NCBI RefSeq assembly: GCF_000719265.1
Contig: NZ_JOFL01000004.1
Span: 124,001-188,000, forward strand
DNA length: 64,000 nt
Reading direction: 5' to 3'
Source of the DNA: Streptomyces roseoverticillatus
GTDB taxonomy: Bacteria > Actinomycetota > Actinomycetes > Streptomycetales > Streptomycetaceae
Below the pieces are notes generated by a model, which worked only from the letters and a program-made list of their open reading frames with translations, had not been told where the DNA came from and did not search any database. Positions 50,987 through 56,695 of the stretch are shown here, piece by piece. Position 1 is the stretch's first letter. The number at the start of each line of letters is the position of its first letter. A program made the position numbers and the translations under genes.

Positions 50987-52156
50987 TCAGGCTTCCCGCA
51001 CGCCCGCGCGCCAGACCGCCGAGACCAGCGGCACGCCCGGGCGGTACGCCAGGTGGACGTGCGACGGGGCGTCGAGGAGGGCGAGGTCGGCCCGCGTGCC
51101 CGGGGCGATGCGGCCCACGTCCGTACGGCGCAGGGCCGCCGCGCCGCCCGCCGTCGCGGACCGGACGGCCTCGTCCGGCGTCATCCCCATGTCCCGCACG
51201 GCCAGGGCGATGCAGAACGGCATGGAGCTGGTGAACGACGAGCCCGGGTTGCAGTCGGTGGACAGGGCGACCGTCGCCCCCGCGTCCAGGAGGCGGCGCG
51301 CGTCCGGCCACTGGGCGCGCGTCGAGAACTCCGCGCCGGGCAGGAGCGTCGCGACGGTCGTGCCGCTCGCCAGGGCGTCCACGTCCGCGTCGGTCAGGTG
51401 GGTGCAGTGGTCGGCCGAGGCCGCGCCGAGCTCGACGGCCAGCTGGACGCCGGGCCCGTAGGACAGCTGGTTGGCGTGCACGCGCGGGGTCAGGCCCCGG
51501 GCGGCACCGGCCTTGAGGATCGTGCGGGCCTGGTCGCCGTCGAACGCGCCCTGCTCGCAGAACACGTCGACCCAGCGGGCGTGCGGCGCGCAGGCGTCGA
51601 GCATCGGCCCGGTGACCAGGTCCACGTACGCGGCCGGGTCGTCCGCGTAGTCGGGGGAGACGATGTGGGCGCCGAGGTAGGTGACCTCGTCGGTGTGGGC
51701 CGCGGCGATGCGCAGCGCGCGGGCCTCGTCCTCGACGGTGAGGCCGTAGCCGGACTTGGTCTCCAGGACCGTGGTGCCCTGGCGCAGGGCCTCGCGCACG
51801 TAGCGGCGCACGTTGGCGTCCAGCGCCTCGTCGCTCGCGGCGCGCGTGGCCGCGACGGTGGTGCGGATGCCGCCGGCGCTGTAGCTCCGGCCGGACATGC
51901 GGGCGTTGAACTCGGCGGTCCGGTCGCCCGCGAAGACCAGGTGGGAGTGGGAGTCGACGAAGCCGGGCAGGGCCGCCCGGCCCTCGGCGTCGACGCGGTT
52001 GTCAGTGGCGGGTGCTTTGCTGGACGTGCCGACCCAGACGACGCGGTCGCCGTCGATGACGACCGCCGCGTCCTGGACCGTGCCGAGGGGGCCTTCGCCG
52101 AGGGAGGGGTCGTTCGTGACGAGACTGCTGATGTTGGTGATGACCGTCGTCGCCAT
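50987..52156 (-). CDS. hutI: Imidazolonepropionase HutI
   Basis: The product is 389 residues, starting at ATG 52156 with GGAG about 10 nt upstream. Metal ligands are in [15 protein letters not shown], substrate residues in [18 protein letters not shown], and [30 protein letters not shown] and [10 protein letters not shown] (catalytic Asp) follow. It opens the ring of 4-imidazolone-5-propionate to give formiminoglutamate. It is the last gene of the hut operon, with a 61-bp gap after hutF, and converges on the aldo/keto reductase. Confidence 0.97.
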
Positions 52157-52217: not shown

Positions 52218-53564
52218 CTAGTCGCGCAGGGCGGCGATCGTCCGTGCCAGTTCCACCGGCACGTCGGCGACGAGCTGGTGGTTCCCGTCGCGGACGATGT
52301 GCCGGCCGCCGACGACGGTGTCCCGGACGTCCGCGTTGGTCGCCGCGAACACGGCCGTCTCGGCGCCGAGCGCGGGCGGCGGGCCCGCGGTGCGCACGGA
52401 GTCCAGGGCGACGGTCGTGAAGTCGGCGAGCGCGCCGGCGGAGATGCGGCCGGCGTCGTCCCAGCCGAGGGCGGAGTGGCCGTCGGCGCTCGCGGCGCGC
52501 AGCAGGGCGGTCGCGCTCCAGTGGCCGCGGGTGCGGCTGTGCAGCCGCTCGTTCAGCTCCATGGCCCGCGCCTCCTCGAACAGGTCGATGACGGCGTGGC
52601 TGTCGCTGCCGAGGGAGAGCGGGGAGCCCGCCTCCTGAAGGGCCGGCGCGGGGCCGGTGCCGTCGGCCAGGTCGCGCTCGGTGGTGGGGCACATGCACAC
52701 GCCGGTGCCCGAGTGGCCGAGGAGACGGATGTCGCCCGGGGTGAGGTGCGTGGCGTGCACGGCGGTCGTGCGCGGACCGAGCACGCCGTGGTGGGCGAGG
52801 AGAGCGGTGGGCGTGAAGCCGTGCGCCTCCACGCAGGCGTCGTTCTCGGCGGTCTGCTCGGACAGGTGCACGTGCAGCGGCGCGTCGCGCTCCTGCGCCC
52901 ACGCTGCCACCGTGCCCAGCTGCTCCGCGGGCACCGCCCGCACGGAGTGGATCGCCGCGCCGATCCGCGTGTTGCCGTCGCCCTTGAGGGCGGAGACGCG
53001 CTCGGCCCAGCGCTCGGCGGTGCCGTCGCTGAAGCGGCGCTGGTGCTTGTCGGGCTCGGCGCCGAAGCCGGAGGAGAGGTAGCAGGTGTCGAGGAGGGTG
53101 ATGCGGATGCCGGCCTCGGCGGCGGCCGCGGTCAGGGCCTCGCCCATGGCGTTGGGGTTGTCGTAGCGGGCGCCGCCGGCGAGGTGGTGCACGTAGTGGA
53201 ACTCACCGACGGAAGTGATGCCGGCGAGCGCCATCTCGGCGTAGGCCGCACGGGCGAGCGCGAAGTAGTTGTCGGGGGTCAGGCGGTCGGCGGTGCGGTA
53301 CATGACCTGGCGCCAGGTCCAGAACGTGCCCTCGCCCGCCTGGGTGGCCCCGCGCAGGGCCCGGTGGAAGGCGTGGCTGTGGGCGTTGGCGAGGCCGGGC
53401 ATGGTGAGCCCGCGCAGGGACACCGCCCCGGGCGGCGGGGCCGGGGTCCCGCCGCGGACGGCCGTGATCCGGCCGTCCCCAGCGGTCTCGATGACCACGC
53501 CCGGCTCGACGCCGGTGTCGAGAAGGGCGTGCTCCGCCCAGTAGGTCTGTGCCGTCAGCGACAC
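52218..53564 (-). CDS. hutF: Formimidoylglutamate deiminase HutF
   Basis: The product is 448 residues, starting at GTG 53564 behind GGAGG. The amidohydrolase ligands are [61 protein letters not shown] and [12 protein letters not shown]. Together these are the HutF type rather than a general cytosine deaminase. It converts N-formimino-L-glutamate to N-formylglutamate and ammonia. Its start overlaps the stop of the M20 gene by 10 bp, implying coupling. Its presence means this organism uses the five-step formylglutamate route, which needs a deformylase. Confidence 0.95.
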
Positions 53565-54948
53565 GCCAGGCCCTCCAGTACGTCGGCGAGTGCGGTCACC
53601 CCGGCCAGGCAGTCGTCCTCGGAGGCCGTTTCGGCGGGTGAGTGGGAGACGCCTGTGGGGTTGCGTACGAACAGCATGGCGGTGGGGACGGCTCCGGAGA
53701 GGATTCCGGCGTCGTGTCCCGCCCCCGTACCGAGGACGGGGACGCTGCCGCCGCCCTCGCCCAGGATGCGGGCGAGCTCGTCGCGCAGGGCGTGCTCGAA
53801 CTCGATGACGGGCGTGAACGACTCCCGCGTGATCCGCACGTCGATGCCGTCGCGCTCGCCGCGCTCCACGGCCGCCTTCTCGATCTCGGCGACCACGAGG
53901 TCGAGGGTCTGCTGGTCAGCGGCGCGCGAGTCCAGCCAGCCGCGCACGAGGGAGGGGATCGCGTTCACGCCGTTCGGCTCGACGCTGACCTTCCCGAAGG
54001 TGGCCAGGGCACCGGCCAGCCGTGCCTTCTTGCGGGCGGCGAGGACGGTGTTGGCGTAGGTCAGCATCGGGTCCCGGCGGTCCTCGATGCGGGTCGTGCC
54101 GGCGTGGTTGGCCTCGCCGTGGAAGTCGAACCGCCAGCGGCCGTGCGGCCAGATGGCGGAGGCGATGCCGACGGCGTGGTCCGACAGGTCCAGGGCGCGG
54201 CCCTGCTCGACGTGCAGCTCGACGAAGGCGCCGATGCGGGCGAGGCGATCGGGATCCGGGCCGATGGCCTCCGGGTCGTAGCCCGCGCGCTCCATGGCCT
54301 GCGCGAGGGAGAGCCCCTCGGCGTCCCGGAGGGCGTGAGCCGCCTCGATGGAGAGCCGGCCGGCGGTCAGGCGCGAGCCCACGCAGGCCAGGCCGAAGCG
54401 GGCCCCCTCCTCGTCGCCGAAGTTGACGATCGCGAGGGGGCGGGACGGCTGCGCGCCGCGGCCGCGGAGCTCGTCGAGGGCGGCGAACGACGAGACGACG
54501 CCGAGCGGGCCGTCGAAGGCGCCGCCGTCCGGGACGGAGTCCAGGTGCGATCCGGTGACGACGGCGTCCCCGGCGTCGGGGTCGCCGAGCCAGGCCCACT
54601 GGTTGCCGTTCCGGTCGACCTCGTAGGCGAGCCCCCTGGCTTCCGCCTGGGTGCGGAACCAGGCGCGGCAGTCGGTGTCGGCGCCGGTCCAGGCGAGGCG
54701 GCGGTAGCCGCCGGTGTCTTTGTCACGGCCGATAGGGCGCAGATCGGCCCACATCTCGTGGAAGCTCGCCCCACTGGTCGTGGGCAGTCGTTCCGCAGGG
54801 CGGAACGGGTGGGCACGACCCGTCCACCGGCCCGCACCCGACTCGGATGCCTCCGGTGGGGCGGACGCGCCGTCGCCGGCTGCGGGTGCGGTTGTGCCCA
54901 CCCGTTCCGCCCCGGCGGAACGACTGCCCACAACCGGATCGGGCTCGC

Positions 54949-54952
<4 letters not shown>
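53555..54952 (-). CDS. M20 peptidase-family amidohydrolase (allantoate amidohydrolase-like) with inserted N-terminal extension
   Basis: The product is 465 residues from GTG 54952, which overlaps the hutU TGA as GTGA. The core begins near [15 protein letters not shown] at about residue 62, where relatives normally start. Metal and catalytic residues are in [31 protein letters not shown] and [11 protein letters not shown]; the dimerisation lid has [11 protein letters not shown], and [11 protein letters not shown] and [10 protein letters not shown] end the domain. The extra N-terminal residues are encoded by a palindromic repeat element. An ATG at the MWADL position is an alternative start. As no hutG is present in this window, it may deformylate formylglutamate (inference). 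Confidence 0.88.
54776..54935. mobile_element. 160-bp MITE-like element inserted in frame in the M20 gene
   Basis: The left end 54776-54820 (begins GGTCGTGGGCAGTCGTTCCG) and right end 54890-54935 (begins GGTTGTGCCCACCCGTTCCG) are 45- and 46-bp inverted copies of each other. Each also has an internal CGTTCCGC/GCGGAACG hairpin. The element encodes no protein of its own. On the minus strand it reads through without a stop and adds two related peptides ([15 protein letters not shown] and [14 protein letters not shown]) near the N-terminus. I recall similar GTTCCGC..GCGGAAC palindromes as intergenic repeats in Streptomyces. Confidence 0.8.
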
Positions 54953-56613
<1,661 letters not shown>

Positions 56614-56658
56614 GGGGCCCTGCCTCCCTGGCGGCTGCTCTCGCTGCTCTGCCCTGCT

Positions 56659-56695
56659 CTGAATAGAACACTGCACATCTTGGGTGGCTGAATAG
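56659..56695 (-). promoter_or_regulatory. hut operon promoter region with direct repeats
   Basis: Upstream of hutU the sequence is AT-richer. Two CTATTCAG copies (minus strand; plus-strand CTGAATAG at 56659-56666 and 56688-56695) are spaced 29 bp apart. TTGACT, reading leftward from about 56705, is a possible -35. The repeats are candidate binding sites for a hut regulator. Confidence 0.4.

Follow-up and report, generated by a model that had tools for sequence, protein, structure and literature searches.

How does a palindromic repeat come to lie in frame near the beginning of an enzyme gene, and is it then translated as part of the protein? The question is raised by a stretch of 64,000 nucleotides from Streptomyces roseoverticillatus (hereafter the window), in which the M20 gene of a hut operon carries such an element just behind its start codon. 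An earlier note on this DNA had described the element as captured in frame, so that it either extended the N-terminus of the enzyme or forced a later start. Frequent protein-coding mobile palindromes are best known from Rickettsia. To place the element we examined its structure, the corresponding junction in other genomes, and the copies of its arms in the window's genus and in a scan of named genomes.

Results

The element and its gene

The hut genes lie on the minus strand in the order hutU, M20 amidohydrolase, hutF and hutI. Urocanate hydratase, the upstream coupled gene hutU, occupies 54949..56676 as an open reading frame, but its family match starts at residue 27 and the true start is probably further inside. 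The M20 gene (53555..54952) matches the profile NF006770 ("allantoate amidohydrolase") from residue 63, and its relatives in structure and sequence are allantoate amidohydrolase and L-carbamoylase. It is overlapped downstream by hutF, formimidoylglutamate deiminase (52218..53564), which is followed by hutI, imidazolonepropionase (50987..52156). As the earlier note had it, the M20 frame starts at the GTG of a GTGA motif (54949..54952, minus strand) shared with the hutU stop, an overlap that suggests translational coupling, and it stays open across the element.

The element, which we call F1, spans 160 bp (54776..54935, minus strand) and codes for M20 residues 6-59. It consists of two inverted hairpin arms and an interior: the first arm in gene sense is a near-palindrome of 46 bp (54890..54935, minus strand), the second one of 45 bp (54776..54820, plus strand), and the interior between them has 69 bp (54821..54889, minus strand). 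The arms are inverted repeats of each other and each is itself able to form a hairpin. Both lie within the M20 frame, so that the earlier description of a palindromic element with two translated repeats agrees with the reading frame. The 176 nt around the element have a predicted folding energy of -139 kcal/mol, where shuffles average -91.6 (z -9.4) and none of 200 does as well, and Rfam gave no match to a described RNA family up to E 1 over 54600-55100. The element is also free of stops in all six frames, but the same holds for 111 of 1000 dinucleotide shuffles of it and for 64 of 2000 random 160-mers of the window; six-frame openness is therefore weak evidence by itself and was rejected as a special feature.

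The F1 block separates the hutU stop from the enzyme's first helix. In an AlphaFold2 model built from 28 sequences (mean pLDDT 79.9) the fold begins with helix 64-71, while pLDDT falls below 50 at residues 1-59 and 141-146. The conserved core runs from the motif SFHEMW onwards (53558..54766, minus strand), and the tail before it is predicted to be disordered and outside the fold.

A variable slot that keeps the reading frame

We compared the hutU|M20 junction in 118 distinct rows, 110 of them from Streptomyces (29 of the 30 in a first set, 71 of 196 matching genus genomes, and 10 picked for F1) and 8 of 9 from outside it. Two loci with no adjacent hutU (L032, L214) and two duplicates (L128, L059) were left out before counting. 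The overlap start is in frame with the M20 core at all 110 Streptomyces junctions, against one third expected under random spacing, and no in-frame stop occurs at any of them. The overlap is GTGA in 104, ATGA in three, TTGA in two and CTGA in one. Between the hutU stop and the core the insert takes 49 distinct lengths from 0 to 429 nt, every one a multiple of 3. Outside Streptomyces seven of the eight junctions are in frame, L212 being the sole out-of-frame row among the 118. Inserts of 0-9 nt were found at 31 of the 118 junctions.

The M20|hutF junction of the same operon served as a control. Its distances, extrapolated from alignment for 44 of 45 loci (three being repeats of one genome), lie between -18 and +45 nt in 43 of 44; the remaining locus reaches 168 nt, and no F1 occurs in the printed sequences of this set. 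The frame kept over 49 lengths at one junction, together with the near constancy of the other, argues that the M20 N-terminus is a hypervariable slot and that translation most likely begins at the overlap start and runs through the insert. Of the two outcomes that the earlier note had left side by side, an extension from the overlap start is thus favoured over a later start. The signal of frame selection comes from the orthologs as a group rather than from the window strain alone, and for the latter it suggests translation of the tail by analogy.

What fills the slot

F1 or a remnant of it is present at 32 of the 110 Streptomyces junctions, that is, at all 10 picked for F1 and at 22 of the other 100, the window included; these 100 contain G146, where a copy was known nearby, and some genomes known beforehand as F1 carriers. 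A strict search found the palindrome close before the M20 motif in 9 of 392 genus genomes, including the window's own, besides one match at another gene (G009) and two control matches. Five of the 121 named F1 sites listed are at hutU|M20, in S. triculaminicus, S. violaceusniger, S. spinosisporus, S. hokutonensis and S. griseoincarnatus.

Four further repeat families, F2 to F5, occupy the same slot in other species, some of them nested in F1. F2 lies within F1 in L040, L045, L191, L205, L208 and L223, with the exact pattern in three; in eight genomes searched it has 32 copies in G152, 23 in G220, 4, 2 and 1 in three others and none in the remaining three. The six rows with F2 in F1 do not form one clade on the M20 tree. 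The exact F2 copies nested in slot F1 have a T variant that is otherwise seen in only 2 of 59 F2 copies. This pattern of F2 in F1 suggests junction exchange or repeated loss.

The exact F3 pattern occurs in the slot of L043 and L219, at five further loci, and directly ahead of M20 in L032, which has no hutU next to it; degenerate F3 was recognised by eye in L162 and L170. F4 fills the slot of L194 and, in the opposite orientation to the gene, that of L200, and is found in 207 copies in G127, 64 in G133, 63 in G117, seven in the window's genome and none in two others. F5 is nested in the F1 loop of L153, L154 (by eye) and L158, and its exact pattern recurs at three further loci. The 429-nt in-frame M20 tail of L061 (G108) is, judged by eye, largely a degenerate tandem repeat that apparently derives from an F1 arm end.

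Relatives and history of the window site

The nearest relative examined (G084, M20 core 93% identical) has an insert of 30 nt and no F1, and the next nearest (G082, core 89%) has one decayed F1 arm. S. triculaminicus (L277, identical in sequence to L148) carries a full element at the same place. The interior of the window element matches this copy only as the reverse complement (73 inverted vs 19 direct, shuffle maximum 35), and the same is true of G018 (61 inverted vs 25 direct, shuffle maximum 32). Eight junctions that have diverged further give a less clear picture: the shuffle maximum is passed only in the inverted sense by five (L141, L142, L145, L057, L140), in both senses by L150, and in neither by L207 and L061. 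Two events would produce such an interior: the inverted arms may have recombined and turned it round, or a separate insertion may have occurred the opposite way.

A quick M20 tree, weakly supported inside (46 of 115 inner branches open) and not used to count independent F1 insertions, requires at least 21 changes to explain the distribution of F1, where 100 label shuffles need 28.6 on average and never fewer than 23. Since 21 is below every shuffle, the pattern is in part inherited, and the rest reflects repeated gain, loss or exchange. On the evidence of these alignments, F1 has occupied this hypervariable N-terminal slot either repeatedly or for a long time, and the site, compared by sequence across the genus, is seen empty, full, inverted, nested and decayed, always in frame. 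The idea of a lone capture has to be given up, as relatives of the element, decayed or inverted, lie in the same slot across many species. The same observation qualifies the expectation that distant Streptomyces would lack the extension: such relatives are widespread, and other species, the nearest relative included, are without the element.

Dispersal of the F1 arm family

The window's genome (G000) contains four F1 arms at three sites, two at M20, one at C6:76552 and one at C56:234, which supplies the additional copies that the earlier note had proposed to count. The 36-bp core of the first arm is identical to the core of the copy at C6:76557. Within the genus the F1 pattern matches in 46 of 199 genomes, with a maximum of 35 in one genome (G186), while a reversed-pattern control gave none. 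G186, G004 and G100 contain recurring units of about 205 bp that have a central stem, conserved ends and flanks that differ between copies. In the G186 units (L079-L092) the central stem is conserved and the loop of about 20 nt differs strongly between most copies. Streptomyces sp. CB02261 (L289:1194-1530) has two tandem F1 units with an arm spacing of 112 and a period of 188. The 80 named F1 stretches listed, out of at least 120, are all from Streptomyces bar one each labelled Actinacidiphila, Streptantibioticus and Microtetraspora, the last of which may belong to G100, itself assigned to the window's genus.

To see whether these copies lie within genes we used a codon log-odds classifier trained on the window and the fetched loci, a rough substitute for a gene finder. 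It could be applied to 106 of the 121 distinct named F1 sites listed, the other 15 being less than 260 nt from the end of a stretch. Neither flank has a coding signal at 80 of the 106; one side has it at 24, and both sides, in one open frame, at two. Judged by these flanks, F1 is a dispersed Streptomyces repeat that elsewhere mostly stands without surrounding coding signal.

The pairing of the arm was followed in 83 distinct copies, where the counts lean on a search pattern that forces most inner positions and are informative only for pair 17 and for the outer pairs. Pairs 2-4, outer positions on which the pattern sets no condition, are standard in 96-98% and show at least three types each; pair 17 alternates mostly between T-A and C-G. 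As these pairs vary and yet stay paired, the F1 hairpin is kept through paired changes.

Other copies in open frames

Both other copies in the window's genome also lie in open frames. At C56 (L003:234-279) an arm is in frame within a StiP/TRSP tellurite-resistance-like protein. At the same site an F1 arm and a nested repeat can be recognised by eye in G084, and at least 7 of 16 orthologs (G018, G281, G035, G062, G075, G102, G109) have a short linker and no F1. The C6 copy (L002:1501-1546, C6:76552) is part of a single open frame in which a gluconate 2-dehydrogenase subunit 3 part is fused to a GMC oxidoreductase part; homologues were found in 2 of 18 genomes (G035, G018), where they are two genes in different frames.

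Some further cases were noticed in passing. In what looks by eye like the linker of a fused ABC-permease-like protein, an F1 arm occurs in G018 (L129:1481-1525) and in S. triculaminicus (L319) in different frames. G117 has further arms that seem to lie within open coding frames (L134, L135, L131, L136), including one pair. In G192 (L074) an arm falls between two frames of the StiP-operon region, possibly a split or frameshifted gene.

Discussion

The explanation that we consider probable is that a MITE-like F1 element occupies a tolerant, translationally coupled N-terminal slot, where it survives only in frame, flips and decays. A non-autonomous element would insert just after the GTG that overlaps the hutU stop, by means of a transposase acting in trans, a mode of mobility suggested by the dispersal of F1. 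Insertions that are out of frame or bear a stop would be purged because M20 would be translated from the overlapping start, and those in frame would persist, since the residues that they add make up a disordered tail ahead of the fold; a function of the tail is not required. Recombination between the inverted arms may then flip the interior, or the window may hold a new insertion that lies the opposite way. Deletions would afterwards reduce the element to a single arm, to a remnant or to nothing at all. Our searches identified no transposase, autonomous copy or target-site duplication for F1. Arm pairs 0.5-3 kb apart, as for an autonomous element, were not noticed among the matches listed, and no clear target-site duplication was seen in the window compared by eye with G084 or in the G186 flanks, where the element borders are uncertain.

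A bolder form of this explanation, which we hold only tentatively, takes hutU|M20 as a true landing slot. At least five palindrome families would be directed to, or retained at, the coupled start and would repeatedly build a disordered N-terminus, with an interior that flips between two coding orientations. If true, it would be a case of a bacterial protein terminus evolving through serial capture of mobile hairpins outside Rickettsia.

An alternative is that the hairpin right after the M20 start is a regulator, as RNA or DNA, of hutU-M20 coupling or of downstream hut mRNA stability, with translation incidental. The very strong fold does start 17 nt past the start codon, strong folds are also predicted in L148 (z -11.6) and in L043 (z -9.5), where the repeat is of another family, and paired changes preserve F1 arm hairpins generally. 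That pairing, however, belongs to the dispersed family and not to the M20 site, the nearest relative does without the element, and more than a quarter of the junctions have next to no insert. Compared with codon shuffles, only 12 of 63 tails of at least 60 nt reach a folding z of -2 or below, F1 tails contributing 6 of 32 and the others 6 of 31, and selection for a hairpin across all M20 tails was not supported as a general feature of the slot. We regard such a regulator as unlikely.

The slot might instead have been filled once in an ancestor, without any further insertion, and the present states would then result from vertical descent, deletions and point decay. This would fit the tree, which needs fewer changes than any shuffle, the F1 B-half remnants, which by eye have the same orientation and the same flanking tail in much of a 54-row clade, and the start of F1 about 9 nt after the first base of the start codon in L148, G018 and G189. 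It does not fit the unrelated F2, F3, F4 and F5 in the slot, which are present elsewhere too and in the case of F4 lie in two orientations, nor the window's element, the interior of which is inverted relative to L148/L277 and G018, and we think it very improbable. Least probable of all, by a shade, is an M20 start downstream of the element, at a GTG, TTG or ATG near SFHEMW, which would make the element an untranslated spacer and would suit a best family model that begins at residue 63 and a tail that lacks conservation, but a spacer of this kind should be out of frame in about two thirds of cases, whereas the upstream start is in frame and unbroken by stops at all 110 Streptomyces junctions.

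Comparison with known systems

The preferred reading, of an in-frame MITE-like occupant, can be set beside several kinds of repeat. F1 resembles MITEs in being short and non-autonomous, with terminal inverted repeats and many copies in unlike flanks, as the 205-bp units illustrate; it differs in that its ends are themselves hairpins and in that a parent transposase and target-site duplication were not found. With REP/BIME sequences and their RAYT transposases it shares imperfect palindromes of about 45 bp, inverted pairs and a position mostly outside genes. The associated domain Y1_Tnp (PF01797) occurs in 6 of 14 F1-carrying genomes searched (G204, G189, G155, G122, G147, G064) and in 2 of 6 genomes without F1, but is absent from G113, G186, G117, G006, G008, G004, G000 and G018. 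As these include the two richest in F1 (G186, G113) and the window's own, mobilisation by REP/RAYT was rejected.

Translation of both arms of an inverted repeat has a parallel in the mitochondria of Nematomorpha, according to PMC6649704. There the repeats are perfect and lie in conserved parts of proteins, unlike the dispersed repeats and disordered tail seen here. Single in-frame fusions by way of MITEs are described as not unusual in other bacteria in PMC10969869. For Streptomyces, no report of translated palindromes was found among the open-licence papers listed.

The closest likeness, which the earlier note had aptly drawn, is to the palindromic elements of Rickettsia (RPE). These measure about 150 bp, with ten families and 44 integrations in R. 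conorii, and according to PMC10969869 they are several families of short palindromes inserted in frame in coding regions and translated. They lose repeat identity over time, as PMC6649704 has it, just as the slot remnants do, and the reference list of that paper includes a 2002 title in which coding palindromes of Rickettsia are termed unique but recurrent. In-frame insertion that would be translated is what the Streptomyces junctions suggest here too. Unlike RPE, which are mostly inside open reading frames, F1 was placed within one at only 2 of 106 sites by the rough classifier; it fills one N-terminal slot in many species where RPE fill many genes in one genome, and its host is a GC-rich actinobacterium. 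Because of its position mostly outside reading frames, and because the likeness is one of behaviour, we do not file F1 as RPE, and would say by analogy that it works like one. The free-living, GC-rich genus offers a natural series at one orthologous site, all states of which keep the frame, and such a series lets one test directly how mobile hairpins become protein sequence and whether the resulting tails act.
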